Source: Ulvibacter algarum (GTDB lineage: Bacteria; Bacteroidota; Bacteroidia; Flavobacteriales; Flavobacteriaceae). From it: 64,000 nt of DNA. Shown here piece by piece: positions 854 through 58,148 of the stretch. The stretch is from assembly GCA_947488905.1 (NCBI GenBank), contig CANLBJ010000008.1, positions 1 to 64,000 of the forward strand, read 5' to 3'. The notes beneath the pieces were generated by a model. The model did not search any database and was not told where the DNA came from. It was given only the letters and a program-made list of their open reading frames with translations. The position numbers and the translations under genes were made by a program. Position 1 is the first letter of the stretch, and each line of letters starts with the position of its first letter.

Positions 854-2797
854 ATGATTAACGTTACTTTGCCAGATGGCAGTATTAAAGAAATGGAAAA
901 CGGCAGCACCGTGATGGATGTTGCAATGAGCATTAGTGAAGGATTAGCACGTAACGTGCTTTCTGCATCTTATGATGGTAAGACCGTTGAGACCTCCACC
1001 CCACTTACGCAAGATGGAAGTCTAGTTCTTTTTACTTGGAATAATGATGAAGGCAAAAAAGCATTCTGGCACTCATCTGCACACATACTTGCACAAGCAT
1101 TAGAAGAATTATATCCAGGTGTTAAATTAACTATTGGGCCTGCCATTGAAAATGGATTTTATTATGATGTAGATTTTGGCGAGACTTCTTTTGTAGAAAA
1201 AGATCTTGTAGTAGTAGAGAAAAAGATGCTTGAGATAGCGAGAGGTAAACACCCTTTTACTTTAAGATCAACATCTAAAGCAGACGCACTTGATTTTTAC
1301 AAAAAACAAAACAACGAATACAAAGTAGAATTAATAGAGAATCTTGAAGACGGGACAATCACTTTCTGCGATCATGATTCTTTTACAGATTTATGTCGTG
1401 GTGGTCATATCCCCCATACTGGAGCTATAAAAGCTATTAAATTAATGAGCATCGCTGGTGCTTACTGGAGAGGTGATGAAAATAATAAACAACTAACTCG
1501 TATTTACGGTATCACGTTTCCGAAGCAAAAAGAGTTAAAAGAATACTTAGAGCTACTAGAAGAAGCAAAAAAGCGAGATCACAGAAAACTAGGTAAAGAG
1601 TTAGAGCTTTTTACATTCTCGCAAAAAGTAGGACAAGGTTTACCTTTATGGCTACCTAAAGGTGCCGCACTAAGAGAGCGTCTTGAGAATTTCTTGAAAA
1701 AGGCTCAAAAGAAAGCGGGCTACGAGATGGTAGTAACACCACATATAGGAAATAAAGAATTGTATGTGACTTCTGGTCACTTTGCAAAATACGGTGAAGA
1801 TAGTTTTCAGGTAATTAAAACTCCAAACGAAGGCGAAGAGTTTATGCTTAAACCTATGAATTGCCCACACCACTGTGAGATATATAACGCAAAACCTATG
1901 TCTTATAAAGACCTACCTAAGCGTCTTGCAGAATTTGGTACTGTTTACCGTTATGAGCAAAGTGGAGAGCTTCACGGTCTTACACGCGTGAGAGGTTTTA
2001 CTCAAGATGATGCGCACATTTTCTGTACGCCAGATCAGCTTGACGAAGAATTTAAGAAGGTAATTGATCTTGTTTTATATGTTTTTGGATCTTTAGGGTT
2101 TGAAGACTTTACAACGCAGGTATCTATTAGAGACATGAGTAAGCCTGAAAAATATATAGGCGATGTTTCTACTTGGGAAAAAGCTGAAAATGCAATTTTA
2201 AATGCTGTAAAAGACAAAGGCTTAGATTATATTGTAGAAGAAGGCGAAGCTGCTTTTTATGGCCCTAAGTTAGACTTTATGGTAAAAGATGCACTAGGCA
2301 GAAGCTGGCAGCTAGGTACTATACAAGTAGATTACAACTTACCAGAACGCTTTGAACTTACATATAAAGGTAGTGATAATGAACTACATAGACCTGTAAT
2401 GATACACCGTGCCCCTTTTGGTAGCATGGAACGTTTTGTTGCTATTTTATTAGAGCATACCGGCGGAAATTTTCCGTTGTGGTTAATGCCTGAGCAGGTT
2501 GCAATATTATCATTGAGTGAAAAGTATGAGGAATATGCAGAAAAAGTTTTAAATTTGTTAGAAAATCACGATATTCGCGCCCTTGTGGATAATAGAAGTG
2601 AGACAATTGGAAAGAAAATCCGCGAAGCAGAAATAAACAAGATCCCGTATATGTTGATTATAGGGGAACAAGAAGAAAATGACGGCACGATTTCTGTAAG
2701 AAAACACAGTGAAGGAGATATTGGAACAATGACGGTAGACGCCTTCGGAAAAATGATTGCTGAAGCAGTAGCTAAAGAAATCAAACCATTTAAATAA
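854..2797 (+). CDS. thrS: Threonine--tRNA ligase
   Basis: Charges tRNA-Thr with threonine in the cytoplasm. The 647 residues show the full family layout. There is an N-terminal TGS domain (about 1-60), then the editing domain with HSSAH (His73/His77) and CRGGHIP. The class II catalytic core follows, and a C-terminal anticodon-binding domain covers about the last 100 residues. The catalytic zinc ligands are visible as Cys337 (MNCPHH), His388 (DDAHIF) and His518 (IHRAPFG). Motif 2 is [19 protein letters not shown]. Length is normal. It heads the thrS-infC-rpmI-rplT group, an order shared with many bacteria. Two copies of the TTTCCGAAG motif lie inside the gene. Confidence 0.97.
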
Positions 2798-2843
2798 GAA
2801 TAATAACTTTTTGCATTACGCAGAAAATCTAAATACGTTAGCC

Positions 2844-3398
2844 ATAGCAATACGAAGAAAAAGAAGCCGAGGTCCTGCTAGGATCATTAAAGAAGATCAA
2901 CACAGAATCAACAGAAAGATTCGTGCCGAAGAGGTACGTCTTGTTGGTGAGAATGTGGAGGTTGGTGTTTACAAAACACGCCAGGCACAGGAGATGGCCG
3001 AAGAGCAAGAGTTAGATCTTGTCGAAATTTCTCCTAACGCAAGCCCACCGGTTTGTAAAATAATGGACTATAAAAAGTTTGTCTACGAGCAGAAGAAGCG
3101 CGAAAAGGTGATGAAATCTAAGGCAACTAAAGTGATTATCAAAGAGATTAGGTTTGGTCCTAACACAGATGATCACGATTATGAGTTTAAAAAGAAACAT
3201 GCAGTTAAGTTCTTGAAAGATGGAGCTAAACTTAAAGCGTATGTATTCTTTAAAGGTCGTTCTATTATATACAAAGATCAAGGAGAAATCTTGTTGCTTA
3301 AATTAGCACAGGAACTTGAAGATCTAGGTAAAGTAGAGCAAATGCCAAAACTGGAAGGTAAACGTATGATTATGTTTATCGCACCAAAGAAAAAGTAA
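2844..3398 (+). CDS. infC: Translation initiation factor IF-3
   Basis: Binds the 30S subunit, prevents premature 50S joining and monitors start-codon choice. The N-terminal domain contains [16 protein letters not shown] and [20 protein letters not shown]. The C-terminal domain contains [17 protein letters not shown] and the [13 protein letters not shown] region. No ATG lies near the expected start. The frame is open from a TTG at 2811, but the family-like N-terminus (M)AIRRKR begins at an ATA codon at 2844. I chose 2844 because IF-3 genes are known to use rare AUU/AUC/AUA starts for self-regulation. The TTG at 2811 and an ATT at 2886 are alternatives. It is probably co-transcribed with thrS, 46 bases upstream. 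Confidence 0.9.
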
Positions 3399-3490
3399 TA
3401 TCTCAACTACGCTGAGTAATAGCGTTTAGTTAGAAATATAAAAATATTCCGCTTTGCGGATAGTGTGAAATAATACAAAAAACAGGAATA

Positions 3491-3688
3491 ATGCCTAAAC
3501 AAAAAACAAAATCTAGTGCTAAGAAGCGTTTTAAGCTTACAGGTACTGGAAAAATTAAAAGAAAGCACGCGTTTAAAAGTCACATCTTAACAAAGAAGTC
3601 TAAAAAACGTAAGCTTAAATTAACTCACGATGGTTTGGTACACAAAGCAGATGAGAGTAATATTAAGCAAATGCTTAGAATGAAGTAA
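3491..3688 (+). CDS. rpmI: 50S ribosomal protein L35
   Basis: Small basic protein of the large ribosomal subunit, 65 residues. The N-terminus [20 protein letters not shown] and the [11 protein letters not shown] segment are diagnostic of bL35. It lies between infC and rplT, the usual infC-rpmI-rplT order. The 92-base gap after infC holds no obvious hairpin of the L20-binding leader type, so autoregulation by L20 cannot be read from sequence here. Confidence 0.97.
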
Positions 3689-3785
3689 TCACTTCATCGG
3701 TTATTAACAAATTATAAACCCTGGAGTAGCGCAATTAAAGTATTTTATATAATAAAATCGCCTACTACAAAACACATTTAAAAAA

Positions 3786-4130: not shown

Positions 4131-4163
4131 GACATTTATAAATCTTATTATTTCACACACAGA

Positions 4164-4191
4164 AAGTCCCACTTCATTTGAAGCGGGACTT
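4164..4191 (+). terminator. rplT terminator
   Basis: A 12-base stem (AAGTCCCACTTC pairing with GAAGCGGGACTT, one A-C mismatch) with an ATTT loop is followed by a run of eight T. It ends the ribosomal protein transcript. Two related hairpins occur at 4441-4482 and 8867-8900. Confidence 0.85.
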
Positions 4192-4224
4192 TTTTTTTGG
4201 AGTAGATTGAATAAATAAAAACAG

Positions 4225-4421: not shown

Positions 4422-4440
4422 GACATTTATAAATTTCTTT

Positions 4441-4482
4441 ATATAGAAAATCCCACTTCAAATGAAGTGGGACTTTCTATAT
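4441..4482 (+). terminator. Duplicated rplT terminator hairpin
   Basis: The hairpin TCCCACTTC-AAAT-GAAGTGGGA is extended by flanking ATATAGAAA/TTTCTATAT pairs. It is the second copy of the rplT terminator. Its stem is better paired than the original even though the adjoining coding copy has decayed. The T-run of the original is interrupted here, so termination strength is uncertain. Confidence 0.6.
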
Positions 4483-4520
4483 GGATTAGATTATATCTAA
4501 GAAGATTTAGTATTAAAAAA

Positions 4521-4546: not shown

Positions 4547-4566
4547 TAAACAAAAACTAATCAGAA

Positions 4567-8822: not shown

Positions 8823-8900
8823 AAACTATAAAATGATATACTTATACATCTAATTATTTCTTATTTAGAAAATCCCACTTCAATAGAAGTAGGACTTTCT
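8823..8900 (+). repeat. Third, highly decayed copy of the rplT tail and terminator
   Basis: AGAAAATCCCACTTC-AATA-GAAGTAGGACTTTCT (8867-8900) matches the hairpin at 4441-4482. The upstream bases (AAAC, TAAAAT, CATCTAATTATTTC) align in order with the region around the rplT stop codon (AAAC, TAAAAT, AATCTTATTATTTC). It appears to be an older copy of the same duplicated unit, now separated from the others by two genes. The rest of the gap 8636-8954 shows no gene. Confidence 0.6.
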
Positions 8901-8954
8901 GTGTGTAATAATTTTTACTTTTAATTCAATAAAAACTATTAAAAATTTTATTAC

Positions 8955-10349: not shown

Positions 10350-11618
10350 TCAAGTCTTCTGCTTCTTCTTTTTAGCTGCAGGAAACAATACATTATTTAA
10401 GATCAAACGATAGCCTGGTGATTGCGGGTGTAATGCTAATTCTGTTTTTGCATCCCCTACTCTATGCTGGTAATCTTCTGGATCGTGACCACCATAAAAT
10501 GTAAAGAATCCTTTTCCTTTTATACCGTGTATATATCGCGCTTCTCCATTGGTTTTATTTGCGCCCATAATAAGCACATTGCTTTTTATTTCTTCTGGCT
10601 CATAAGAGGTGGTTTGACCCATAAACCCTTTTACTAAAGAAGTATGGTTTTGAACTAACATACAAGGTATAGGATCCCATTTTGCAGAGTAATCCATCAA
10701 TGTAAAATAATCTGTTTCTTTTGCTATTTTACGTTTGCGCGTCATATCTATACTAGAAAACTCATATACCATTGGGCTGCGTTCTAGCGTAAAGTCTTTA
10801 AAAGCAAAGGTCTTTTTATAATCTATTTTATTTTGATAACCAGCTTCGCTAGGGTCACCGTCAAACATAGGTTCACAAATATCAACACCTTCTGCTGCAA
10901 GCGCAATATCAAAACTATCTGTGGCACTACACATTGCAAACATAAAGCCACCACCCACTACATAATCTCTCACTTTAAGGGCTACATCTCTTTTTGCTTC
11001 GGAAACTTTAGCATATCCCATTTTAGTCGCCAACTCTTCAGACTTTCGCTTTTCTTCTATGTACCAAGGAGCAGAGCGATAGGCTCTATAAAATTTACCA
11101 TATTGTCCCGTAAAATCTTCGTGATGTAAGTGCAACCAATCATACAACAATAGCTCATCACCCATTACTTGTTCATCATATATAGTTTCGTACGGGATTT
11201 CTGCATAGGTAAGTACCATAGTCACGGCGTCATCCCAGGGTTGATTTCCTAAAGGAGAATACACAGCAATCTTTGGCGCTTTTTCTAGTGAGACTGCCTC
11301 CATATTTTGAGAAGGACTAGCAATTAGTTCTAAAATTTCTTCTGTTTTAGAATCGCTTAAAATTTCAAAAGAAACCCCACGTATCTGGCATTCTCTTCTT
11401 ATCTCTTCTGTATCTGGCAATAAGAAAGAACCTCCTCTATAATTGAGTAGCCATTTTACTTTTACTTGCCTGTCTAATGTCCAGTAAGTAATACCGTAAG
11501 CTTTAAGATGTTCTGCCTGGCCTTCTGCATCCATAGGGATAAGTATATAAGAAGCGCTTGCTTGTAATCCAAAAAAGAGAAAGGTAATGAGTATTATCAA
11601 TCGTGTCATGTATCGCAT
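10350..11618 (-). CDS. Exported conserved flavobacterial protein (mislabelled family)
   Basis: 422 residues with a signal peptide (about 1-23, ending ASAS), so periplasmic or surface-located. Relatives in Flavobacteriaceae are often labelled asparagine synthetase B, but I see neither an N-terminal glutaminase Cys nor an AsnB synthetase domain. The visible motifs are YSPLGNQPWDDAVTMVLTYA, WLHLHHEDFTGQYGKF and VGGGFMFAMCSATDSFDIAL. The last has the look of a class I amidotransferase-like or ThuA-like fold with a Cys after a glycine turn. Reaction unknown. It lies downstream of dnaB on the same strand, 238 bases away. Confidence 0.75.
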   Translation of the reverse strand: MRYMTRLIILITFLFFGLQASASYILIPMDAEGQAEHLKAYGITYWTLDRQVKVKWLLNYRGGSFLLPDTEEIRRECQIRGVSFEILSDSKTEEILELIASPSQNMEAVSLEKAPKIAVYSPLGNQPWDDAVTMVLTYAEIPYETIYDEQVMGDELLLYDWLHLHHEDFTGQYGKFYRAYRSAPWYIEEKRKSEELATKMGYAKVSEAKRDVALKVRDYVVGGGFMFAMCSATDSFDIALAAEGVDICEPMFDGDPSEAGYQNKIDYKKTFAFKDFTLERSPMVYEFSSIDMTRKRKIAKETDYFTLMDYSAKWDPIPCMLVQNHTSLVKGFMGQTTSYEPEEIKSNVLIMGANKTNGEARYIHGIKGKGFFTFYGGHDPEDYQHRVGDAKTELALHPQSPGYRLILNNVLFPAAKKKKQKT

Positions 11619-11856
11619 TTTTATGATGCTTATATTATTGCATCAATAGTATGCTAAGATAGTGACAAATTTTAAGCCAAAGTGGGGAAGTCTTGGAGAT
11701 TTCCGAAGAAATATAAATCAAGAAAACGTAAAAAGAATTGAGTGTGCATTATCTGTAACTGTTGCTCACATTTACTCACCCCATTTTGCCTAGATCTTAA
11801 AAGAGAACATTATTCTTAAAGTATTTTGAGTTAGGACTCGAGTTAATTTTCAAATT

Positions 11857-19920: not shown

Positions 19921-20039
19921 ATTTTTGGCTATTTTAACTTTATATAATTTAGATAAAAGCATCAACGCTATAATAGCTTCTTTAAAATTTTTATAACCAC
20001 TGTGCACCATTACTATTTCCGAAGTACTTAAAGCAAAAA

Positions 20040-22960: not shown

Positions 22961-23043
22961 ACCCGGGTGCTGGAATTGGTAGACAGGCACGGTTGAGGGC
23001 CGTGTGCACTAGTTGCGTGTGGGTTCAAGTCCCATTCCGGGTA
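22961..23043 (+). tRNA. tRNA-Leu (anticodon GAG)
   Basis: An 83-base class II tRNA: acceptor ACCCGGG/TCCGGGT (last pair G-T), D-region TGGAATTGGTAGACA, anticodon stem CACGG/CCGTG with loop TTGAGGG (anticodon GAG), variable arm, T-loop TTCAAGT, discriminator A. CCA is not encoded. A terminator hairpin follows within the first unit of a tandem repeat. Confidence 0.96.
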
Positions 23044-23350
23044 CAACAATAGCCATCTTAATCGATGGCTTTTTCTATTTTAAAAACCAGCAACTAGTAT
23101 TAGTTTAGTAAGTAGTGAGAGCGATAGCTCAAACTACTTACTGGTCAACAACAATGAAAGACACATTCTAACCACAACAATAGCCATCTTAATCGATGGC
23201 TTTTTCTATTTTAAAAACCAGCAACTAGTACTGGTTTAATAAGCTGACTGAGCAATAGTTTAATCAAATTTGGTCACAAACTATAAAAACACATAATAAA
23301 CACATTTTAAATCATCCTAACAGATGGCTACTTCTATTTCTAATATATCT
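23043..23350 (+). repeat. Three-unit tandem repeat (131-bp period) after tRNA-Leu
   Basis: A 57-base block at 23043-23099 recurs without change at 23174-23230, and a degenerate third version lies near 23302-23350 (CAGATGGCTACTTCTATTT). The spacer parts also align between units. Each block contains the hairpin AGCCATC/GATGGCT followed by T5, the tRNA terminator. In unit 1 the spacer forms a further strong hairpin (23108-23141): GTAAGTAGT and GAGC, then loop GATA, then GCTC and ACTACTTAC. The array starts at the last base of tRNA-Leu, so it may be a scar of tRNA-associated integration or replication slippage. No coding frame lies in it. Confidence 0.75.
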
Positions 23351-23421: not shown

Positions 23422-23460
23422 CCTATTTCCGAAGAAAAAATATAACTTAATAGTGTAATA

Positions 23461-25028: not shown

Positions 25029-25577
25029 TTATAAAATAGATTTAACTTCTTTTTCTAATTCTTCATACGTAAATGAACCCTCATAGAACGTCCGCTTATT
25101 TTTATTATATATAACAGTCGCAGGAATTGCACCACTCCAATTTTCGTCAATTTTAGGAATCCACCCATTAGCATCTGCATCATCTAGTAATATAACCTCA
25201 CTTTTAAGATTTTCTTTTACATATGGTATTACTTGTTTCTCCAGTTTATCTGGAAAATCTAGACTCACCAACACCACTTTTACATTTTTATCTACATATT
25301 CTTTATTCAGTTTTTCAAAATATGGAAGCTCTTTTACACAAGGTGCACACCAAGTAGCCCAAAAGTTAACCACATAAGTAGTGTCATTCCTTTTGGCCAG
25401 CAAAGGAGCCAAGCCTTGATAATCTACAACCTTAATTAAATTTTCATTGCTTACTATTTCCGAAGAAACAACCGCAGCCACCTTCTCACCATCTTCAACC
25501 TTTAACAACAAGTCTTCTGTCTGTTTTTCTTTACAGCTAGCAAAAACAATTAATACAATGATTACCAAATACTTCAT
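25029..25577 (-). CDS. TlpA-family thiol-disulfide lipoprotein
   Basis: 182 residues from the ATG at 25577, chosen because the protein then begins with the lipoprotein signal MKYLVIIVLIVFASC (Cys15). The frame extends upstream to 25619 without a sensible signal. The thioredoxin motif is FWATWCAPCVKELPYF, with the cis-Pro near GAIPATVIYNKNK. It would keep envelope cysteines reduced or serve cytochrome c maturation; which one cannot be told. It heads a leftward pair with the CNTCPFA protein and is divergent from marR, sharing the short palindromic control region. Confidence 0.9.
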   Translation of the reverse strand: MKYLVIIVLIVFASCKEKQTEDLLLKVEDGEKVAAVVSSEIVSNENLIKVVDYQGLAPLLAKRNDTTYVVNFWATWCAPCVKELPYFEKLNKEYVDKNVKVVLVSLDFPDKLEKQVIPYVKENLKSEVILLDDADANGWIPKIDENWSGAIPATVIYNKNKRTFYEGSFTYEELEKEVKSIL

Positions 25578-25666
25578 GGCATAAAAATACTTCCATAATT
25601 GTTTAGAACACACATCCACTTATTAAATATTTGTTAAAGAGTATGGCTCTAATTAATAAAAGAACG

Positions 25667-28898: not shown

Positions 28899-28902
28899 TA
28901 AG

Positions 28903-29901
28903 ATGAAACAAATACTTAACAAATTAATTAACCACGAGCGTTTATCAAAAGTACAAGCGAGAGAAGTTTTGGTTAATATTTCCGAAGGGAAATATAATCA
29001 AAGTCAGATTGCCGCTTTTATGACGGTGTACATGATGCGTAGTATAGACATTGAAGAACTGGAAGGTTTTCGTGATGCCTTGCTTGAACTTTGCATACCA
29101 GTTAATGTGAGTGATTACAACACTATAGATTTATGCGGTACTGGCGGCGACGGCAAAAACACCTTTAACATAAGTACACTCGCATCTTTTGTCACAGCTG
29201 GCGCAGGCGTGCACGTTACTAAACACGGTAATTATGGAGTCTCTTCTATTAGCGGGAGTAGTAATGTAATGGAACAATTAGGCATTAAGTTTAGCAACAA
29301 CAATGACCATCATAAAAGATGCCTTGATGAAGCAGGAATCTGTGTATTACACGCACCATTATTTCACCCTGCAATGAAAAACGTAGCGCCTATTCGTAGA
29401 GAACTGGGCGTAAAAACGTTCTTTAATATGCTGGGGCCAATGGTAAATCCTGCATTTCCTAAAAACCAGTTAGTGGGAGTTTTTAACCTAGAACTAGCAA
29501 GAATGTATGGTTATCTCTATCAAAAAGGAAATAAAAATTTTGCCGTACTCCACGCTATGGATGGTTATGATGAAGTGAGTTTAACAGGTCCTGTAAAGAT
29601 GATTAGTAATGCATCAGAAATGGTATTGACTCCAGAGAGTTTTGGAGTTCAAAAAATAGCTCAAAGTGATATTTACGGAGGAGAAACTGTAGAAGAATCT
29701 GCTCGTATTTTTTCTGAAATATTAAATGGAAATGGAACTGCCCCACAAAATAATGTAGTATGCGCAAATGCAGGATTGGCTATCGCTACAGTTACGGGCT
29801 GCACTATTCAAGAAGGGTTTGACAAAGCAAAAGAAAGTTTGATGAGTGGTAATGGTTTAATTGCTTTAAACAAATTAAGAGCATTGAGCACAAATTTATA
29901 A
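28903..29901 (+). CDS. trpD: Anthranilate phosphoribosyltransferase
   Basis: Joins anthranilate to PRPP. 332 residues from the ATG at 28903; an upstream TTG at 28888 would overlap trpG and is less likely. Motifs: DLCGTGGDGKNTFNIS (PRPP and Mg binding), GVHVTKHGNYGVSSISGSSN, FHPAMKNVAPIRRELGVKTF and NMLGPMVNP. A TTTCCGAAG motif encodes part of NISEGKYNQ near the start. It is followed by a palindromic spacer before trpC. Confidence 0.96.
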   Translation: MKQILNKLINHERLSKVQAREVLVNISEGKYNQSQIAAFMTVYMMRSIDIEELEGFRDALLELCIPVNVSDYNTIDLCGTGGDGKNTFNISTLASFVTAGAGVHVTKHGNYGVSSISGSSNVMEQLGIKFSNNNDHHKRCLDEAGICVLHAPLFHPAMKNVAPIRRELGVKTFFNMLGPMVNPAFPKNQLVGVFNLELARMYGYLYQKGNKNFAVLHAMDGYDEVSLTGPVKMISNASEMVLTPESFGVQKIAQSDIYGGETVEESARIFSEILNGNGTAPQNNVVCANAGLAIATVTGCTIQEGFDKAKESLMSGNGLIALNKLRALSTNL

Positions 29902-30817: not shown

Positions 30818-30847
30818 TGAGTAGTGAGTAGTGAGTAGTGAGTAGTG
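30813..30847 (+). repeat. Five tandem 7-mers across the trpC stop
   Basis: AGTAGTG is repeated five times without change from 30813 to 30847. The trpC stop (TAG at 30815-30817) is in the first unit, and the repeat places stop codons (TAG, TGA) in all frames. Copy number is likely to vary by slippage without affecting the protein. Confidence 0.85.
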
Positions 30848-30865
30848 AAAAATATAAAATCAGAG

Positions 30866-32798: not shown

Positions 32799-33560
32799 AT
32801 GAATCGCATAAACGACAAACTCAACACAAAATCAAAATTACTCTCCATCTACTTCACAGCAGGTTACCCAAACCTTGAAGACACTGTTCCGGTTTTAGAA
32901 AGCTTACAAGCTAACGGAGTTGACATGGTAGAGATAGGCTTACCCTTTAGTGATCCCTTAGCAGATGGCCCAACCATACAAGCAAGTGGCACGCAGGCGT
33001 TAAAAAACGGAATGACCACTACCCTACTTTTTGAGCAATTAAAAGACATTAGAAAAACGGTCTCTATTCCATTAATTATTATGGGATATTTTAATCCTGT
33101 ATTGCAATATGGGGTGGAGAATTTCTGTAAAAAATGTCAAGAAATTGGGATTGACGGTTTCATTTTACCAGATTTACCGCTGGCAGAATATCAAGAACAT
33201 TATCAAGAAATGTTTGAGAAATACGGTTTAGTCAATGTGTTTTTAATCACACCGCAGACAAGTGACGAGCGCATTAAACAAATAGATGATGCCAGCAACG
33301 GCTTTATTTATATGGTGAGTAGCGCGAGTGTAACGGGTAGTCAATCTGGCTTCGGAAATGCGCAAACGGACTACTTTGCTCGTATCAAAAACATGAATCT
33401 TAACAACCCACAGATTGTAGGATTTGGGATTAATAATTCTGAAACTTTTGACGCTGCAACCAAGTATACTAATGGAGCAATTATAGGAAGTGCATTTATT
33501 AAAATGCTCACAACAAAAGGTATTGACGGTATTAGTGATTTTGTAAAGTCTATTAGATAA
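32799..33560 (+). CDS. trpA: Tryptophan synthase alpha subunit
   Basis: Cleaves indole-3-glycerol phosphate and channels indole to TrpB. 253 residues: LLSIYFTAGYPNLEDTVPVL, VDMVEIGLPFSDPLADGP (catalytic Glu), DGFILPDLPLAEY (catalytic Asp), YMVSSASVTGSQSGFG and VGFGINNSETF. Last gene of the trp operon. A T-rich stretch follows (TAATTTTTTTTAATT) but no convincing hairpin, so read-through into the small genes downstream is possible. Confidence 0.96.
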   Translation: MNRINDKLNTKSKLLSIYFTAGYPNLEDTVPVLESLQANGVDMVEIGLPFSDPLADGPTIQASGTQALKNGMTTTLLFEQLKDIRKTVSIPLIIMGYFNPVLQYGVENFCKKCQEIGIDGFILPDLPLAEYQEHYQEMFEKYGLVNVFLITPQTSDERIKQIDDASNGFIYMVSSASVTGSQSGFGNAQTDYFARIKNMNLNNPQIVGFGINNSETFDAATKYTNGAIIGSAFIKMLTTKGIDGISDFVKSIR

Positions 33561-35799: not shown

Positions 35800-37551
35800 A
35801 TGAAAACTAAAAAACTACTCGTTTTATGCCTTTCGGCATTATTTACCACAACTCTAATAGCACAAAAAAGCCTAGGTAAACAAGCAACCTTAAATGAAGA
35901 CGGAACCATTAGCGTTTCCGAAGTTGAAATACCGCAATCAAGAGTTTCTGGGCAAGGCGGTAATGTACTCTTCACCTTTGAAAGACCTGCAAATCCAGCT
36001 ATTAAAAACTCTAGAGGAGTAACCCTAGCAGATTTAAATGATGATGGGGTTGAAGAAATTATTTTTGGTATCAATACCACACTTTTTGCTTTAAATGGAG
36101 ATGGGACAATCTTTTTTGAAAAAGCAGTAGAAGGTCCTATTTTATTACCACCGTCTATAGCAGATTTAGATGACGATGGTTCACCAGAAATTATAATAAA
36201 TACCGGTTACCCAACTACTGTGGGTAGAGTTTATGTGAAAGACAGTAATGGTGACGACTTACCAGGATGGCCACTTAGCTTTAATGATAAATGGATGATT
36301 AATGCCCCGGCTATTGCAGATGTAGATGGTGATGGTACCCTAGATATTGTTACAGGTGAGCGTTTTGGGAGTACCCAAGGTTTTGTACACGCATTAAATA
36401 TAGACGGAACAGAGATTAACGAAAACTGGCCGGTAGAAGTTCCTGCGACACCTGCATTTACTCCATCCATAGGAGACATTGACAATGACGGTAGTAATGA
36501 TGTTGTGATTGCCGCATCTTCTGCAGGTATGTATGCTTTTAATAGTGACGGAACGATACTAGATGGTTTCCCTTTAGTAGAAACAGGCGTTAACTATTCT
36601 TATCAATCTCCTATGTTAGTTGACCTAGATGGTGACGAAACCCTAGAGATTGTAGGTGCAAATCACGGTGACAATGCTGCTTTTTATGTATTAAATCACG
36701 ATGCTACTTATGCCCCAGGATGGCCTATTGCATTAGGCGGATGGACCTATGCTCCTTCTACTGTTGCAGACCTTGATGATGATGGTACTTATGAGATATT
36801 TATGGGGGATAGAAACACAAGTAATGACACTACAGACTTACCTACCATATATGGCCTTACACCAGAAGGGACAAATATTGCTAACTTCCCTATTGAGAAA
36901 TATGGAGGTAATGAAGGAGTAATAACTATAGGAGATGTAAATGATGATGGTGTTTGGGATATTATTTTTTCTAGCATATTAACAGATGCAGATGGTTTTG
37001 GATACATTCATGCCTACTCTTCAGATGGTAGTGGTGAGATTGATGGTTTTCCACTAAGACCAGAAGGTTTTACTTTTTTAAATGGTGCAGTTTTAGGAGA
37101 TGTGGATAATGATGGCTTGATGGATCTTACTGCAAATTCTCACACGCTTACTTTTGGTGCTGGTGTAGATATGGGTATTGTAAACACATACAATCTAAAC
37201 ACTCCCTATGATGAGAGTAAGGTACTAAGCAATGGCTATAAAGGTAGCAACACACGTGATGGATTAATCTCTGAAGAGGTATTAAGTGTTACTCAATACT
37301 CAAACGCTAAAAAACTAACCATCTCTCCTAATCCTTCTAACGGAGTAATGAGCATCGTAGTTCCGGCAAATATTAAAAACGCTCAATTAAACGTGTATTC
37401 AATTGATGGTCGAATAATCTTAAATAAAACCATAGACACAGCTTCAAACCAGACGTTAAATTACAATTTAAAACAACTTACTAATGGCGTATATTTTGTT
37501 ACTGTAAAAGATGGAAAATCAAACTATTTAGGAAAATGGATTAAAGAATAA
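35800..37551 (+). CDS. FG-GAP/VCBS beta-propeller protein with T9SS tail
   Basis: 583 residues, exported. Signal peptide 1-22 (ending LIAQ). The body contains eight D-x-[DN]-x-D-G loops in evenly spaced repeats (LADLNDDGVEEIIFG; IADLDDDGSPEIIIN; IADVDGDGTLDIVTG; IGDIDNDGSNDVVIA; LVDLDGDETLEIVGA; VADLDDDGTYEIFMG; IGDVNDDGVWDIIFS; LGDVDNDGLMDLTAN), typical of integrin-like propellers that bind calcium. The C-terminus (about 510-583, SPNPSNGVMSIVV, NGVYFVTVKDGKS) is a type A T9SS sorting domain. Probably a surface adhesin or scaffold; the ligand is unknown. The start is supported by the signal peptide. Confidence 0.9.
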   Translation: MKTKKLLVLCLSALFTTTLIAQKSLGKQATLNEDGTISVSEVEIPQSRVSGQGGNVLFTFERPANPAIKNSRGVTLADLNDDGVEEIIFGINTTLFALNGDGTIFFEKAVEGPILLPPSIADLDDDGSPEIIINTGYPTTVGRVYVKDSNGDDLPGWPLSFNDKWMINAPAIADVDGDGTLDIVTGERFGSTQGFVHALNIDGTEINENWPVEVPATPAFTPSIGDIDNDGSNDVVIAASSAGMYAFNSDGTILDGFPLVETGVNYSYQSPMLVDLDGDETLEIVGANHGDNAAFYVLNHDATYAPGWPIALGGWTYAPSTVADLDDDGTYEIFMGDRNTSNDTTDLPTIYGLTPEGTNIANFPIEKYGGNEGVITIGDVNDDGVWDIIFSSILTDADGFGYIHAYSSDGSGEIDGFPLRPEGFTFLNGAVLGDVDNDGLMDLTANSHTLTFGAGVDMGIVNTYNLNTPYDESKVLSNGYKGSNTRDGLISEEVLSVTQYSNAKKLTISPNPSNGVMSIVVPANIKNAQLNVYSIDGRIILNKTIDTASNQTLNYNLKQLTNGVYFVTVKDGKSNYLGKWIKE

Positions 37552-39266: not shown

Positions 39267-39285
39267 ACGTCACTGTATTAATGTG

Positions 39286-39293
39286 CAAATATA
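39286..39293 (-). promoter_or_regulatory. PASTA-rluD operon promoter
   Basis: TATATTTG on the minus strand (CAAATATA at 39286-39293), 19 bases before the PASTA gene ATG. Confidence 0.6.
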
Positions 39294-39327
39294 ACGGGCA
39301 ATTTACTATCTTTTTAAAGATAACGAC

Positions 39328-39335
39328 TATTTTTG
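39328..39335 (+). promoter_or_regulatory. ddl promoter -7 element
   Basis: TATTTTTG at 39328-39335. Its presence inside the upstream part of the open frame supports the later ATG (39383) as the ddl start. Confidence 0.5.
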
Positions 39336-39382
39336 TTAGCCTGCGTTTGCCTTTATCTATTAAACGTAGCAATTTTAAAAGT

Positions 39383-40366
39383 ATGCGAAATAATAAGAAA
39401 AATATTGCCGTGCTTATGGGCGGCTATTCTAGCGAAGTAAACATCTCTATTAACAGTGGTATGGTAGTCTGCGAAGCTTTAGATAAAAGCAAATACAATG
39501 TCTATCCTGTTCATATTTTAAAAGAAGGCTGGTTTTTTGTTTCTGAAACAGCTACTAAAACACCCATTGATAAAGGTGATTTTAGCATTAAAACAACAGA
39601 TGGCACCCTTATTCCAGATGCAGTTTTTAATACCGTACACGGTACACCCGGCGAAGATGGATATTTAGCAGCTTATTTTGAGCTTCTTGGCATCCCACAA
39701 ACGAGCACCGGTTTTTATGCAGCAGCACTTAGTTTTAACAAACGAGATTGTCTGTCTGTATTAAAAAACTTTGGTGTAAAATGCGCCAACTCTTATTTGC
39801 ACAATCAAGGCGAACCTATAGATGTGACGGCCGTGATAACAAAAGTGGGGCTCCCTTGCTTTGTAAAACCCAACCGTGCTGGTAGTAGCTACGGTGTTAG
39901 CAAAGTGAACACGATGGAAGATTTTGCCCCTGCCCTAGCGCACGCCTTTAAAGAAGACAAAGAGATCATTATAGAGACGGCACTCGTAGGCACAGAAGTA
40001 TCTGTAGGTACATATGCTCACCTCGGAAACGTGAAAGCCTTTAATCCTACAGAGATTGTAAGCGAAAATGACTTCTTTGACTATGAGGCTAAATATGAAG
40101 GAAAATCACAAGAAATAACACCTGCGCGCATTTCCGAAGAAGAAACATTACTCGTGCAAGACGAAGCAAAACGTATCTACACATTATTAAATATGAGAGG
40201 TATTTGCCGCTCAGATTTTATTATTCAAGATGGCGTACCGCACTTTATTGAAATAAACACTACTCCAGGATTAAGCACCGAAAGTATTATACCTAAACAA
40301 GTTAAAGATGCTGGGATGAATCTTACAGACTTTTTTGGGGAGTTGATAGAAGTGGTTTTAAAATAA
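39383..40366 (+). CDS. ddl: D-alanine--D-alanine ligase
   Basis: ATP-grasp enzyme that makes the D-Ala-D-Ala dipeptide for peptidoglycan. 327 residues from ATG 39383; the frame is open to 39281 but that region is promoter. Motifs: NIAVLMGGYSSEVNISINSG, NTVHGTPGEDGYLAAYFELL, PQTSTGFYAAALSFNKRD, CFVKPNRAGSSYGVSKV, RGICRSDFIIQDGVPHFIEI and NTTPGLSTESIIPKQ. Followed eight bases later by a helical protein of unknown function. Divergent from the PASTA-rluD operon. Confidence 0.96.
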   Translation: MRNNKKNIAVLMGGYSSEVNISINSGMVVCEALDKSKYNVYPVHILKEGWFFVSETATKTPIDKGDFSIKTTDGTLIPDAVFNTVHGTPGEDGYLAAYFELLGIPQTSTGFYAAALSFNKRDCLSVLKNFGVKCANSYLHNQGEPIDVTAVITKVGLPCFVKPNRAGSSYGVSKVNTMEDFAPALAHAFKEDKEIIIETALVGTEVSVGTYAHLGNVKAFNPTEIVSENDFFDYEAKYEGKSQEITPARISEEETLLVQDEAKRIYTLLNMRGICRSDFIIQDGVPHFIEINTTPGLSTESIIPKQVKDAGMNLTDFFGELIEVVLK

Positions 40367-43985: not shown

Positions 43986-44516
43986 ATGAACTCAAACCCT
44001 TTCCCAATACTAAAAACAGAACGACTCACTCTCCGCAAATTAGCCGAGACAGATAGCGATATCGTTTTATACTTACGCTCTGACGCAGAAATAAATAAAT
44101 ATATAGAGCGGCCAGAACATAGAAAAACTAAAACTGTAGAACAGGCAAAAGCGCACATAAACAAAATGAATGGTTTATTTAACACCAATCAAGCTATTGC
44201 TTGGGCTATCACTCTTAACGACACTTCAAATCTAGTAGGCAATATATGTCTCTGGAACTTTTCCGAAGACAAAAAAACAGCAGAGGTGGGGTATGACTTA
44301 AGCCCTGCGTTTCAGAAAAAAGGAATTATGAGTGAGGCTATAAAAGCAATACTACAGTTTGGTTTTGAAATGAAAGGGTTAGAAAAAATAGAAGCGTTTA
44401 CGCATTTTAAAAACGAAGCTTCAAAAAAACTTTTAGAGACTAATGGCTTCATATTTGCTGAGGATAGAAAAGACAATGGTAACCCTACAAATATTATCTT
44501 TGAGATTAAGAAATAA
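43986..44516 (+). CDS. GNAT-family N-acetyltransferase (RimJ/RimL-like)
   Basis: 176 residues with the N-terminal FPILKTERLTLRKLAETDSD, strand LVGNICLWNFSEDKKTAEVG, YDLSPAFQKKGIMSEAIKAI (acetyl-CoA binding Q-x-x-G-x-[GM] region) and FTHFKNEASKKLLETNGF. This is the RimJ/RimL type that acetylates N-termini of ribosomal proteins or small amines; the substrate is unknown. Co-transcribed with the DUF998 gene. The next gene starts eight bases after its stop. Confidence 0.9.
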   Translation: MNSNPFPILKTERLTLRKLAETDSDIVLYLRSDAEINKYIERPEHRKTKTVEQAKAHINKMNGLFNTNQAIAWAITLNDTSNLVGNICLWNFSEDKKTAEVGYDLSPAFQKKGIMSEAIKAILQFGFEMKGLEKIEAFTHFKNEASKKLLETNGFIFAEDRKDNGNPTNIIFEIKK

Positions 44517-44523
44517 AGAAACA

Positions 44524-45618
44524 ATGATTAAAAATATACTCACCCTTTCGCTTACAATACTCGTTTGCATTACAGCAAACTCACAAACACCATCACTCAC
44601 AAAATTTTACGACTATAACCCAGCCGTAGAGCATCGTGTAGATGAGATTTTTAATTCTTTAAATGATAATGCCCGTGTAGCGCAAATGATTGTTACCTCT
44701 GCTGGCGAACTTGGCAAACCAGATAAGACGGTTTTAAAGCTTGCCAGAGAAAACAAAATAGGCGGTATCGTTTTTCTTAAAGGAAGCAAGGAGAATCACA
44801 AGGTACTTATTGATAGTCTTGACGGTATAAGCCAGACGCAAAGGCAATTACCGCTGCTCTACTCTATTGATGCTGAGCCTAGCCTGTATAATGGGAGATT
44901 AAATGGTAGTGCGCCTATGATGAACACTATTGACATTAAAACCAACCAACAAGCAGATTCTATCGCGACCATCATTAATAAAACACTATTAGAGATAGGT
45001 TTCCGCCAGAACTTTGCGCCCGTAGTAGATGTGAGCCCTAATAATGAAGCGATAAAAAATAGAAGCTTCGGAAATGATAAGAATCAAGTGATCTCGTTAA
45101 GCAAACAGTTTATTAAGACCACCCAAGAGCAAGGGATTGTAGCAACTGCAAAACACTTTCCGGGTCACGGTTTGGTTAGCGGAGACACACATAAAAAATC
45201 TGTTTATATAGATGGAGACTTGAAAGAACTAGAAGTATATCCGCCATTAATTGACGCTGGTGTTCTTTCTATAATGATGGCGCACATCACGATAGAAAAC
45301 AACCCAAAATACAGTACAGATGGTTTACCTGCCAGTTGTTCTAGAAAGATTGTAACAGGTCTTTTAAAAGAAGAATTAGGTTTTAAAGGTCTAGTCATTA
45401 CAGACGCATTAAACATAATGAAAGCTGTAACAATTATTGACAATGCTCCCTTACTAGCTTCAAAAGCAGGTAATGATATGTTATTAATGCCTATAGACGA
45501 GACAGAAACCATAAACAGTATTCTTGCCGAAATGTCAATAGATTCAATCTATAGACAACAGGTATATCAATCTGTAAAGAAAATTATTAGGCTAAAGGTG
45601 TATCTTGGATTGATGTAG
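44524..45618 (+). CDS. Exported glycoside hydrolase family 3 protein
   Basis: 364 residues from the ATG at 44524, which gives a clear signal peptide (MIKNILTLSLTILVCITANS); the frame is open upstream inside the acetyltransferase gene and that part was rejected. GH3 N-terminal domain: FAPVVDVSPNN, the KHFPGHG signature (TAKHFPGHGLVSGDTHKKS) and the predicted nucleophile Asp in GLVITDALNIMKAV. Length and motifs resemble NagZ-like beta-N-acetylglucosaminidases, so it may cut muropeptides in the periplasm. No C-terminal GH3 domain. Confidence 0.9.
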   Translation: MIKNILTLSLTILVCITANSQTPSLTKFYDYNPAVEHRVDEIFNSLNDNARVAQMIVTSAGELGKPDKTVLKLARENKIGGIVFLKGSKENHKVLIDSLDGISQTQRQLPLLYSIDAEPSLYNGRLNGSAPMMNTIDIKTNQQADSIATIINKTLLEIGFRQNFAPVVDVSPNNEAIKNRSFGNDKNQVISLSKQFIKTTQEQGIVATAKHFPGHGLVSGDTHKKSVYIDGDLKELEVYPPLIDAGVLSIMMAHITIENNPKYSTDGLPASCSRKIVTGLLKEELGFKGLVITDALNIMKAVTIIDNAPLLASKAGNDMLLMPIDETETINSILAEMSIDSIYRQQVYQSVKKIIRLKVYLGLM

Positions 45619-45655: not shown

Positions 45656-46543
45656 ATGACACAAAGCCTAACCTATTATATTACCTTATTTGCAATCAAA
45701 CTTAAAGGTATTAAAAAGGAATTTAGCAAAGACCCAGTTGATTATTTAAAAATACGTAAAGCAGATATACATCACCCTAAAGGAGCTTTTTATAAAAAGA
45801 ATATAACTCGTGAGTTTAAGGTTTTAAAAAGTAGCATTACAGAAGTTAGCCAGAGTAGAAACTCTGGTAAATTAATACTATTTATTCACGGTGGTGCTTT
45901 TATCTCTGGGCCTGTAAAACATCATTGGGACTCTATAAAAGAGATTGTTAAACAAACAGATCAAACCGTCTGGATGTGTGATTACCCAAAAGCTCCCGAA
46001 CATACTATTTCTGAAATCTCAAAAAACATAGACGCCATTTACAAAACGGCTTTGTCAGAATATCAAGCAGATCAAATTATATGTTTAGGAGACTCTGTAG
46101 GCGCAACTTTAATAACAGCGTTAATACAAAGGGCCATAAAAAACAACTTAGCACTACCCCATAAAATTGTTCTTGTCTCTCCTGTTATGGACGCAACATT
46201 AACGAACCCAAAAATTGATAACATTGACCTCATTGACCCAATGCTTTCTAAAGCCGGTGTACTTAGTGCCAAGAAAATGTGTGCAGAGAATGATGACCTA
46301 AAAAATGAAATGATCTCACCATTACATGGCAGTTTTATAAAATTTCCGAAGACAGTGTTATTTTTAGCAGAACACGATATTACTTATCCTGACCAACAAT
46401 TAACTATTAAAAAAATGAACGAGAGTAGTGTTTCTTCTGAAATAATTATTGGAAAAAACATGCCTCATATTTGGCCATTTTTACCTGTAATGAAAGAAGC
46501 CAAAATTGCTCTTCAAGAAATTATAAATAAGCTAAATAATTAG
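45656..46543 (+). CDS. Alpha/beta hydrolase (HSL-like esterase)
   Basis: 295 residues. The oxyanion motif is LFIHGGAFISGPVKHHW (HGGAF) and the nucleophile elbow is CLGDSVGATLITAL (G-D-S-V-G). The acid is likely in FLAEHDITYPD and the His in NMPHIWPFLP. These place it in the hormone-sensitive lipase / acetyl esterase group. Substrate unknown. No signal peptide. Follows the GH3 gene by 37 bases on the same strand. Confidence 0.88.
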   Translation: MTQSLTYYITLFAIKLKGIKKEFSKDPVDYLKIRKADIHHPKGAFYKKNITREFKVLKSSITEVSQSRNSGKLILFIHGGAFISGPVKHHWDSIKEIVKQTDQTVWMCDYPKAPEHTISEISKNIDAIYKTALSEYQADQIICLGDSVGATLITALIQRAIKNNLALPHKIVLVSPVMDATLTNPKIDNIDLIDPMLSKAGVLSAKKMCAENDDLKNEMISPLHGSFIKFPKTVLFLAEHDITYPDQQLTIKKMNESSVSSEIIIGKNMPHIWPFLPVMKEAKIALQEIINKLNN

Positions 46544-48311: not shown

Positions 48312-49088
48312 ATGCTTCAACCAGCTTTATCATATTTAAAATTTATTAAAAACTCCAGCAATCAGCACGGTGTCCACTCCCCTTTTGTGTATAATTTATT
48401 GACCAAATGTTTATATACTTCAGAAACTCCAGAGGCATTTAATATAGTCAAAGAGCACAGAAAATGGTTATTACAGAATAACACAGAAATAGAAGTTACA
48501 GACTTTGGTGCAGGATCAAGGGTTTTTAAAAGCAATCTTCGGAAAGTTTCTGCAATTGCTAAAAATGCCGGTATGACAAAAAAAAGGCAACGATTGCTAA
48601 GCAAACTTGTAGCCTATTTAAAGCCATCTGAAATTTTAGAGATTGGGACTTCTGTAGGTTTAGCAACAGTAGCAATGAGATCTGGTAATGATGCAGTAAC
48701 AATTACTACCGTTGAGGGATGTCCTGCAACTTCAGGCATCGCGCAGGAAGCTTTTGAGCATTTTGGTTTCAGCGATATAGAGCAAATAAAAAATAAATTT
48801 GACGTCTTTTTTGATTCAGAAAATTTCCGAAGTGAGTTAGATTTTGTTTTTGTGGATGGCAATCACAGCAAAGAAGCCACCTTAGATTATTTTAATAAAC
48901 TACTCCCTAAAATGACTAATGAAGGTGTTATCATTTTTGACGACATTTACTGGAGCTCAGCAATGACAGAAGCTTGGCAAACCATTTGTAATCACCCAAA
49001 AGTGACCGTCAGTATTGATACCTACCAATGGGGCTTGGCATTTTTTAGAAAAGAACAACAGAAAGAACATTTTACTTTAAGAGTGTAA
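48312..49088 (+). CDS. Class I SAM-dependent (O-)methyltransferase
   Basis: 258 residues. SAM-binding motif I is EILEIGTSVGLATVAMRSG, with the acidic post-I region TTVEGCP and LDFVFVDGNHSKEATLDYFN (motif II), then GVIIFDDIYWSSAMTEAW. The N-terminal sequence (SNQHGVHSPFVYNLLTKCLY) is shared by a Bacteroidota subgroup. Small-molecule O-methylation is the likely chemistry; substrate unknown. Has its own promoter. Two TTTCCGAAG motifs (48537 complement, 48824) lie inside. Confidence 0.88.
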   Translation: MLQPALSYLKFIKNSSNQHGVHSPFVYNLLTKCLYTSETPEAFNIVKEHRKWLLQNNTEIEVTDFGAGSRVFKSNLRKVSAIAKNAGMTKKRQRLLSKLVAYLKPSEILEIGTSVGLATVAMRSGNDAVTITTVEGCPATSGIAQEAFEHFGFSDIEQIKNKFDVFFDSENFRSELDFVFVDGNHSKEATLDYFNKLLPKMTNEGVIIFDDIYWSSAMTEAWQTICNHPKVTVSIDTYQWGLAFFRKEQQKEHFTLRV

Positions 49089-54385: not shown

Positions 54386-54423
54386 GACTCTTATTTTACA
54401 AACGTTTTATTAATTACTTTTTG

Positions 54424-56352: not shown

Positions 56353-56377
56353 AACCATAATCTAAAACCATATAATT

Positions 56378-56734: not shown

Positions 56735-56794
56735 AATAAGCGCACCGCTCATATTAAAAGACTTTCATCTTACTTCGGAAACGCGCTAAAAAAC

Positions 56795-56830
56795 AAAAAT
56801 CCCGCTGTTCAATTGAACAGCGGGATTTTT
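56795..56830. terminator. Perfect 36-bp bidirectional terminator
   Basis: An 18-base arm, AAAAATCCCGCTGTTCAA, and its exact complement are directly adjacent (56795-56830), with A5 and T5 at the ends. It terminates both the MotA/TolQ-like gene and the convergent folD. Confidence 0.9.
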
Positions 56831-56854
56831 AACATCTTAAAATTTCCGAAGCAA

Positions 56855-57742
56855 TTATTTTCTTGCCGCAGCTCTTTGTTCTCTAGCTAAAAGTGTGTTT
56901 TTTAATAACATTGCAATAGTCATAGGTCCTACTCCACCAGGAACTGGTGTAATAAAACTTGCTTTTTTACTTACGTTTTCAAAATCTACATCACCTACAA
57001 TTCTATATCCTCTAGGCATGCTTTCATCTTCTACACGAGTAATACCTACATCTATAATTACAGCATCATCTTTTACCATTTCTGCTTTTACAAAATTAGG
57101 AACCCCTAATGCAGAGATCACAATATCTGCTTGACTGATAATCTGTGTAATGTTTTTTGTGCTACTGTGTGTTAATGTAACCGTACTGTTTCCTGGCCAA
57201 CCTTTACGACTCATCAAGATACTCATAGGACGTCCTACAATATGGCTACGACCTATTACAACAGTATGTTTTCCTTTAGTATTCACATCATAACGCTCAA
57301 GCAATTCTAGAATTCCAAAAGGCGTTGCTGGGATAAAGGTAGACATATCTAATGCCATACGCCCAAAGTTCTCAGGGTGAAAACCATCTACATCTTTGCT
57401 AGGATCTACTGCCATCAATACACGTTGCGTATTAATCTGCGGAGGCAATGGTAACTGAATGATAAAACCATCTATGTCATCATTCTGGTTTAACTCTTCT
57501 ATTTTATCAAGTAGTTCGATCTCGCTAGTAGTATGTGATAAACGCACCATTGTAGACTCAAAGCCCACACGCTCACAAGAACGTACTTTACTCCCCACAT
57601 ATGTCAAACTTGCACCATCATCACCTACAATAACAGCTGCAAGATGTGGCACTTTCTCACCAGCATCTTTCATCTTTTTTACTTCTGCAGCGATTTCGTT
57701 TTTAATGTCGTTTGAGACTTTTTTTCCGTCGAGAATTGTCAT
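56855..57742 (-). CDS. folD: Bifunctional methylenetetrahydrofolate dehydrogenase/cyclohydrolase
   Basis: Interconverts 5,10-methylene-, methenyl- and 10-formyl-tetrahydrofolate. 295 residues: LAAVIVGDDGASLTYVGSKV (catalytic Lys in YVGSK), DGFIIQLPLPPQI, PSKDVDGFHPENFGRM, FIPATPFGILELLERY, the NADP-binding VVIGRSHIVGRPMSILMSRK and TPVPGGVGPMTIAMLLKN. Normal length and complete. Monocistronic, shares a terminator with the convergent gene. Confidence 0.97.
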   Translation of the reverse strand: MTILDGKKVSNDIKNEIAAEVKKMKDAGEKVPHLAAVIVGDDGASLTYVGSKVRSCERVGFESTMVRLSHTTSEIELLDKIEELNQNDDIDGFIIQLPLPPQINTQRVLMAVDPSKDVDGFHPENFGRMALDMSTFIPATPFGILELLERYDVNTKGKHTVVIGRSHIVGRPMSILMSRKGWPGNSTVTLTHSSTKNITQIISQADIVISALGVPNFVKAEMVKDDAVIIDVGITRVEDESMPRGYRIVGDVDFENVSKKASFITPVPGGVGPMTIAMLLKNTLLAREQRAAARK

Positions 57743-57779
57743 ATTAAAATAGTATTCAGTGGCAGTTGCAGTAGCAGTT

Positions 57780-58148
57780 TTAGCTAGTTACTCCAAATTT
57801 ACCCGGGTTATTAATCATATAATTTATCAGTTTTCCAACCTCTAAACTTTTGTTATTTAAATCACTATGTAGTTCCTCTGAAATATAATTACAGCCAAGC
57901 GCAAACTCCAGCCAAACTTGTGTTTCAGAGTTCTCACCATCAGAATCTGTTAGCTTACTAATAAAATGTTTCTCATATCAACGTTTACGATATGATTCTG
58001 CAATATTAGCATTTGTAGACCTAGAAGATCTTCTAATTTGATCTGTCAAAGAATACGTCTCTTCCTTCGGAAAAGTTTTAGAAACTTCAAAAATCTCCAT
58101 AGCTAACGAAAAACCTTTCTGATAAGCCAAGAGACTTTTAAAACTCAT
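57780..58148 (-). pseudogene. Four-helix-bundle (23S IVP-like) protein broken by one stop codon
   Basis: From the ATG at 58148 the frame reads MSFKSLLAYQKGFSLAMEIF, DQIRRSSRSTNANIAESYRK and then R, followed by TGA (57978-57980). Beyond the stop the same frame continues to 57780 as YEKHFISKLTDSDGENSETQ, VWLEFALGCNYI and ends GKLINYMINNPGKFGVTS. Together these make the 122-residue four-helix-bundle family found in rRNA intervening sequences and as free genes. Homologues have Arg at the stop position (RKRRY), so a single CGA to TGA change explains the break. No other damage is seen, which suggests a recent event or a sequencing error. Confidence 0.85.

Follow-up and report, generated by a model that had tools for sequence, protein, structure and literature searches.

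Uptake words have been named for the Pasteurellaceae and the Neisseriaceae (PMC7811141, PMC1939737; here and below, papers are cited from parts of their text). The uptake signal sequence (USS) of the Pasteurellaceae is printed as AAAGTGCGGT (PMC2346458), and the DNA uptake sequence (DUS) of the Neisseriaceae is read by ComP (PMC3868556) and occurs in dialects between related species (PMC3630211). A transposon screen in Riemerella recovered ComEC, DprA, ComF and RecA, together with four proteins that have no counterparts in known machineries; these include an outer-membrane carboxypeptidase-regulatory-like protein and an adjacent DUF5689 protein, which were proposed as channel and DNA binder (PMC8459023). 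This pair, RA0C_RS04915/RS04920 in Riemerella anatipestifer, is essential for transformation (PMC8459023), and transformation is reduced when tonBA or tonBB is mutated, in the case of tonBB perhaps via iron (PMC8383284). Riemerella columbina prefers its own DNA; in the part of the paper cited here no uptake word was found, and its published k-mer table (Table 3) ranks A/T-rich words by raw count (PMC7965970). Among the matches listed from the open-licence literature, no uptake-type word was reported in Bacteroidota, and those listed for the word described below concerned unrelated subjects only. We analysed a window of 64,000 nucleotides from Ulvibacter algarum (contig CANLBJ010000008.1, positions 1 to 64,000), in which the 9-letter word TTTCCGAAG recurs on both strands, together with the genome of the window (G000; draft assembly of 3.55 Mb in 33 contigs) and related genomes. 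We found that TTTCCGAAG is a real, genome-wide, clade-restricted DNA word, and propose that it, extended to TAAnATTTCCGAAGnAAAAA, is probably an uptake-sequence-like word for the recognition of self-DNA.

The window holds 21 copies of TTTCCGAAG over both strands, against a mean of 0.41 and a largest count of 2 in 100 dinucleotide shuffles. Among window 9-mers it has the top ratio of observed to expected copies (21 against 0.43 from base composition); by raw count, two A/T-only complementary words are more numerous (23 window copies). Fifteen of the 21 copies lie in open reading frames (ORFs) and six outside, and those in ORFs cover six combinations of phase and strand (2/6/1 in sense phases 0/1/2 and 1/1/4 in antisense). 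The sequence-only reading had listed the same 21 sites, and every coordinate and strand proved exact; most copies are indeed genic with differing codon phases, as it had claimed. The copies of TTTCCGAAG are given below with their amino acid readings, and with the named loci (L003, L010, L012) in which a site is identical.

1517..1525, plus strand: sense in ORF 854-2797, phase 0, read as FPK
2743..2751, minus strand: antisense in ORF 854-2797, read as AFGK
10997..11005, minus strand: sense in ORF 10350-11618, read as VSEA
11700..11708, plus strand: outside ORFs
20016..20024, plus strand: outside ORFs, in a convergent gap
23426..23434, plus strand: outside ORFs
25457..25465, plus strand: antisense in ORF 25029-25619, read as SSEI
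28979..28987, plus strand: sense in ORF 28888-29901 (which we take to be trpD), read as ISEG; identical in L003 and L012
31235..31243, minus strand: antisense in ORF 30894-31529, read as NFGN; left member of an outward pair; identical in L003
31399..31407, plus strand: sense in ORF 30894-31529, read as ISEV; right member of this pair; identical in L003
33350..33358, minus strand: antisense in ORF 32799-33560, read as GFGN; identical in L010 (Cochleicola)
35915..35923, plus strand: sense in ORF 35800-37551, read as VSEV
40131..40139, plus strand: sense in ORF 39281-40366, read as ISEE; identical in L010 (Cochleicola)
44260..44268, plus strand: sense in ORF 43986-44516, read as FSED
45066..45074, minus strand: antisense in ORF 44443-45618, read as SFGN
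46343..46351, plus strand: sense in ORF 45656-46543, read as FPK
48537..48545, minus strand: antisense in ORF 48312-49088, read as LRK; left member of an outward pair
48824..48832, plus strand: sense in ORF 48312-49088, read as NFRS; right member of this pair
56773..56781, minus strand: outside ORFs; left member of an outward pair flanking a hairpin
56843..56851, plus strand: outside ORFs; right member of this pair
58065..58073, minus strand: outside ORFs

In the whole G000 assembly the word occurs 817 times, 409 forward and 408 reverse, or once per 4.3 kb, and the control, the same word read backwards, 58 times (32 + 26). In 464 kb sampled from the genome (13% of it, made up of the window plus 20 further stretches of 20 kb each) there were 121 copies against 0.94 expected from an order-3 Markov model, and TTTCCGAAG was the highest-scoring 9-mer of this sample under the order-2 and order-3 models; under order 5, a model into which most of the word is already built, it ranked third, with 46 copies expected. 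When codons were shuffled synonymously in 271 ORFs of at least 600 bases (344 kb, 100 trials), a mean of 1.72 +/- 1.33 copies and a maximum of 6 were obtained, against 82 observed coding copies. All six phases were occupied in the sample, some being favoured: sense copies numbered 8, 24 and 3 in phases 0, 1 and 2, and antisense copies 6, 22 and 23. The spacing of copies was Poisson-like, with a coefficient of variation of 0.97 over 100 intervals and a variance-to-mean ratio of 1.07 in 116 bins of 4 kb, and their orientation did not correlate with GC skew (55 against 66), which is weak in this draft assembly. Copies outside ORFs were in excess in G000 (35/121, in about 16-17% of the DNA) and in G008 (37/101, in 15%); no such excess was seen in G006 (6/45, in 14%) or for the 8-mer core of the word in G022, G082 and G267 pooled (9/171, in 10%). 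Among genic copies of six pooled genomes, antisense exceeded sense (152 to 112, p 0.016; p 0.11 in the window's genus alone), the same direction as reported for Pasteurellaceae and Neisseria (PMC2346458); for the Pasteurellaceae word, the complement is described as commoner in genes, with biases towards gene ends (PMC2346458). Sense copies favour readings of the form xSE and antisense copies xFGN or xSEI, as might be expected from a codon or dipeptide preference, but the synonymous shuffles rule out a codon or protein explanation, and the copies outside ORFs speak against it too. The contexts of the copies share nothing beyond AT-rich flanks, which rules out a dispersed repeat or miniature inverted-repeat transposable element carrying the word. 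An origin in codon choice or in such an element is hardly credible.

Site conservation was analysed by aligning G000 stretches to G008, G006, G005 and G009, with sums over six groups in which a site may count in more than one relative. The results showed that TTTCCGAAG sites were identical in 15 of 49 comparisons, against 240 of 2680 for shuffled-letter 9-mers (about 3.4 times as often) and 10 of 97 for controls keeping CCG. All three aligned window sites were identical in L003, from the window's genus (about 80% identity), and most window sites had turned over in named loci at about 70% identity. These results support selection or drive on TTTCCGAAG at the DNA level. The sequence-only reading had already held that protein sequence is not the cause and that selection at the DNA level is likely, and the synonymous shuffles and the conserved sites agree with it on both points. 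Of the two observations that it had named as able to overturn its view, the frequency is far from Markov expectation and the phases are not those of a codon preference for dipeptides in one phase.

Copies of the word that lie close together tend to point outwards. In 1.364 Mb from six genomes bearing the word (349 sites), 28 of the 41 pairs closer than 300 bp were outward (CTTCGGAAA...TTTCCGAAG) and 4 opposite, and 5000 trials of strand randomisation gave a mean of 10.2 outward pairs and at most 21. The number of close pairs was itself above uniform placement (41 against 27.5 +/- 5.1, with a maximum of 47 in 1000 trials), and pairs of the 8-mer in four bearers from other genera were outward in 14 of 30 cases and opposite in none. 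All three close pairs of the window (31235/31399, 48537/48824 and 56773/56843) are outward, and terminators do not explain the arrangement, because two of the three lie wholly inside genes. Outward pairing would fit a dimeric reader, directional uptake or the protection of fragment ends. A perfect 36-bp palindrome resembling a two-way terminator is located at 56795-56830 (TTGAACAGCGGGATTTTT and its complement), between the words at 56773 and 56843, and a similar hairpin stands between two words in L084, near 1434-1507.

The alignment of the 121 sampled G000 sites lengthened the consensus to TAAnATTTCCGAAGnAAAAA, with AT-rich flanks; a longer AT-rich extension of the core also belongs to the USS. 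Single-letter variants of TTTCCGAAG were mostly rare in the G000 sample, the enriched ones being those of the central position (about 5-fold; TTTCTGAAG with 42 copies and TTTCAGAAG with 38) and of position 7 (5- to 9-fold; 8 to 13 copies), and the flanks of TTTCWGAAG sites were the same as those of TTTCCGAAG. The palindromic forms TTTCAGAAA/TTTCTGAAA were enriched 9-fold in G000, 0- to 2.3-fold in four genomes that do not bear the word, 3.2-fold in the non-bearer G007 (8 against 2.5) and 1.7-fold in pooled non-enriched named loci. Over whole genomes of the window's genus, TTTCWGAAR stood at 4.1-6.0 times its reversed control in five bearers and 2.2-2.6 times in six non-bearers. The palindromic forms may be a second kind of site or may represent a distinct signal. 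The strongest word is asymmetric, with 121 copies of TTTCCGAAG against 6 of TTTCCGAAA. This asymmetry bears on the idea of a chromosome-organising or nucleoid word, in which a dimeric DNA-binding protein would recognise TTTCNGAAR along the whole chromosome. The near-palindromic core, the enrichment of TTTCAGAAA/TTTCTGAAA and the preferred relative orientation of paired sites would all suit such a protein; the strongest word is nevertheless asymmetric, no clustering or gaps beyond chance were seen in the sampled G000 stretches, and sisters in the same genus, which still need chromosome biology, are not enriched. We consider it quite unlikely.

The distribution of the word was evaluated within one order, the Flavobacteriales, as the count of the word over that of the reversed control, with ratios calculated by hand. 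In the window's genus, five of 11 genomes bear the word (G000, G005, G006, G008 and G009), and it is not enriched in the six small ones (1.7-2.1 Mb, 77-90% complete). Among 299 Flavobacteriaceae genomes above a completeness floor of 90%, 26 reached at least three times the control, 14 of them at least 5 times and 12 between 3 and 5 times. A trpD tree of 51 rows (the window and 50 of the 80 named loci; trpD may itself have moved between lineages) contained a supported clade of the window, Aureisphaera, Ulvibacter, Altibacter, Aequorivita and Cochleicola, in which 12 of 12 rows stood at 1.9 times the control or above, Aureisphaera galaxeae being lowest at only 1.9 times. Five enriched rows fell elsewhere on the tree (Subsaximicrobium, UBA4166, Luteirhabdus, Zunongwangia and Mesonia), and the rows of Winogradskyella, Tenacibaculum, Polaribacter, Flavobacterium, Dokdonia and Leeuwenhoekiella did not exceed 1.2 times the control. 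The distribution is patchy yet clade-inherited. A second bearing family (f5, genus g232), hinted at by 8-mer counts in 296 genomes, failed the Markov test, with 17 copies against 12.4 in 120 kb of G562 and 4 against 4.8 in 55 kb of G595. No comparable dispersed word was found in 80-100 kb each of the non-bearers G048, G099, G130, G213 and G007; the k-mer table of the G213 stretches (L155-L158) is dominated by overlapping words around CTAGGTTCTAG, which look like a tandem repeat.

Genera also differ in the letter that precedes the core TTCCGAAG. A preceding T is nearly obligatory in G000 (T 121, A+C+G 6), and equally so in G008 (40:0) and G006 (12:1). In G022, G082, G267 and G231, A and C are over-represented too; the counts in G022 were A 16, C 18, G 7 and T 35, against 2.5, 2.9, 1.5 and 3.8 expected. 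The G231 stretches (L214-L218) also contain distinct enriched words, CATTTTTGAC (13 against 0.48 in 100 kb) and AAATGTCATT (10 against 0.44).

Strand and lineage both bear on a Chi-like hotspot, that is, a word read in the cell by a helicase-nuclease of the AddAB/RecBCD type that protects or recombines linear DNA. Like Chi, TTTCCGAAG is a short, asymmetric, genome-wide word, abundant and dispersed and acting at the DNA level, and its outward pairs would shield a fragment under attack at both ends, provided that the word were read from its 3' side. Unlike Chi, it has no visible strand bias, either in the assembly (409 against 408) or relative to the weak GC skew, against which no over-representation oriented with replication was found. 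Neither the six sisters of the same genus nor most family genomes counted are enriched, and the enriched palindromic variant would suit a reader of double-stranded better than of single-stranded DNA. A Chi-like role is unlikely in our judgement; among the literature matches listed, nothing on point concerned Chi words in Bacteroidetes.

The word is scarce around genes of conjugative elements. A search for the conjugative-transposon gene TraG (TIGR03783) in 19 genome entries, two of which are probably duplicates of others (identical counts), found four loci in three entries, with no match in G000. The 40 kb around each TraG gene (160 kb from three bearers) held 2 words against 26.9 expected from genome-wide densities, these regions being fixed windows around TraG rather than mapped element limits. 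Both words were near the ends of one region, and the central 24 kb of each region held none against 16.2 expected; the 8-mer had 9 copies in the same 160 kb. Scarcity of this kind, together with the patchy distribution, would also be left by a word with which a defence or DNA-modification system marks self, so that the cell's own DNA is shielded from an immune nuclease. At one copy in 4.3 kb the word is sparse for such a purpose, and a modification could protect DNA without any enrichment; this explanation is very improbable.

Uptake sequences are marked by even accumulation on both strands throughout the genome, by dialects, by their absence from sister lineages and by their rarity in mobile DNA. 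TTTCCGAAG has these features, with dialects between genera and losses in lineages, and it also exceeds Markov expectation, has no orientation bias and is constrained as DNA in all frames. Because of the symmetric strands, the clade dialects and the scarcity in conjugative elements, we favour an uptake-type word over a Chi-like or chromosome-organising one; of the options offered by the sequence-only reading, the uptake-like word is thus preferred by inference, and the recombination or chromosome-organisation signal less so. If TTTCCGAAG is an uptake word, the natural-transformation machinery would have a DNA receptor at the cell surface that binds double-stranded DNA carrying it, and kin DNA would hence be imported and recombined more often. 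Repeated import would restore and spread the word at tolerant chromosomal positions (molecular drive), and mobile DNA not arriving by this route would lack it. We infer such binding and preferential uptake, as well as the identity of the reader considered below.

The USS is similar to TTTCCGAAG in being a short asymmetric word with hundreds of copies and no general orientation bias, placed in genes and in gaps (PMC2346458). The two differ in that word and phylum are unrelated, that outward pairing is preferred here, also inside genes, that a palindromic variant is co-enriched, and that G000 yielded no type IV pilus assembly ATPase. With the DUS, TTTCCGAAG shares the character of a putative self-DNA word with dialects between related species. 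ComP, the reader of the DUS, is a pilin acting with type IV pili. A search with PF00437, the type IV pilus assembly ATPase, gave no match over the cut-off in G000 (pilins were not searched for), and strong matches (E below 1e-100) were found in 14 of 68 genomes, namely five of 28 bearers and nine of 40 others. Strong matches are lacking in 23 of the 28 bearers, two of which, G233 and G307, only just pass the cut-off. The reader is unlikely to be a ComP-type pilin, since no such ATPase was found in G000, and a type IV pilus reader is not supported for this genome.

A further likeness is to the system of R. anatipestifer and R. columbina, in which outer-membrane and DUF5689 genes adjoin and ComEC is present. 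G000 holds machinery of this type, ComEC and an adjacent pair, as judged by domains and order. The two genes of the pair lie side by side at L139:3248-6109, encoding a candidate outer-membrane protein of 953 amino acids with a carboxypeptidase-regulatory-like domain, and L139:6144-8330, encoding a protein of 728 amino acids with two DUF5689 domains. They resemble the Riemerella pair by domain content and gene order rather than by direct sequence comparison, and the most plausible reader would be the outer-membrane protein with its DUF5689 partner. recA is within 5 kb of the pair. The systems differ in that no uptake word was identified in Riemerella and that in G000 ComEC (G000:C1:955559) is about 777 kb from the pair, on the same contig. 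Both genes were present in 49 of 50 loci examined, the first often cut by the locus end. A search of solved structures gave one weak match for the DUF5689 alignment (E 0.12) and none for the neighbouring protein.

Several findings weigh against an uptake word and its candidate reader. The deficit in mobile elements may partly reflect their lower GC content (about 0.35 against 0.41 in the G267 sample), and atypical tetranucleotide composition was not significantly related to the word in G000 (Spearman -0.05, p 0.57). The palindromic variant TTTCWGAAA is also enriched in G000 (105 sites against 11) and, being two changes from TTTCCGAAG, is not a one-step decay product; pairs involving TTTCWGAAG variants have no clear outward preference. 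The intragenic end bias of the Pasteurellaceae kind is present only when three other genera are pooled (p 0.004), and not in the window's genus (p 0.55). Sampled at 100 kb each, G006 and G082 have other 9-mers that outscore TTTCCGAAG, among them AAAGCCGAA in the G006 stretches L194-L198 (13 against 0.62), and TTTCCGAAG is modest in G231 (10 against 1.7) and G243 (8 against 2.8). As to the reader, the 953-residue protein has no TonB plug or barrel domain by Pfam, its role resting on the Riemerella paper. The transformation candidate genes of G000 are also present in non-bearers, and neither DUF5689 (65 of 68 genomes) nor ComEC (66 of 68) tracks the word; the word-free small sisters keep them in five and six of six cases, respectively, and the bearer G280 has no DUF5689 match. 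Being nearly family-wide and kept in word-free sisters, the two cannot explain who bears the word, and the presence of DUF5689 is not supported as a discriminating gene. Subtypes of the DUF5689 C-terminus do not track the word either (14 A and 10 B in 24 bearers; 8 A, 10 B and 8 others in 26 non-bearers; locus L129 left out), and are not supported as a specificity switch. In a tree of the neighbouring outer-membrane protein (21 full-length rows), bearers and non-bearers did not form separate groups. Any specificity would need to reside in differences of sequence. A weak lead is a C-terminal type matching neither A nor B, which none of the 24 bearers had and 7 of the 26 non-bearers did, with one further ambiguous case.

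We also put forward, more tentatively and with somewhat more doubt than belief, that the word is a third self-recognition code, evolved in the Flavobacteriaceae independently of the Pasteurellaceae and Neisseriaceae. Its genus dialects would be built on the core TTCCGAAG and read by an outer-membrane transporter and a DUF5689 surface partner instead of a pilin, possibly as a dimer favouring outward words. If true, the choice of self-DNA would have evolved again in Bacteroidota, without the usual pilus and with a different receptor, and the word would offer a handle on the outer-membrane step of flavobacterial transformation and a practical tag for rendering marine Flavobacteriaceae transformable. 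With bearers and word-free sisters in one genus, a genetic test of the reader is possible.

Other sequence features were noted in passing. The DUF5689 C-terminus comes in two very different types, A and B (about 33% alike), and species within a single genus alternate between the two, as if recombination had exchanged them (L251-L270). In the window, tandem AGTAGTG copies stand at 30813-30848, in the gap before ORF 30894, and the AGTAGTG unit recurs across many G005 contigs. Three copies (75-100%) of a 57-nt repeat whose arms are complementary, possibly a repeated terminator, are located at 4155-4211, 4439-4495 and 8861-8917. A 113-nt repeat (81%) at 23027-23139 and 23158-23270 starts at the tail of a tRNA-Leu gene (22961-23044), possibly as a tRNA-adjacent insertion or a duplicated fragment.

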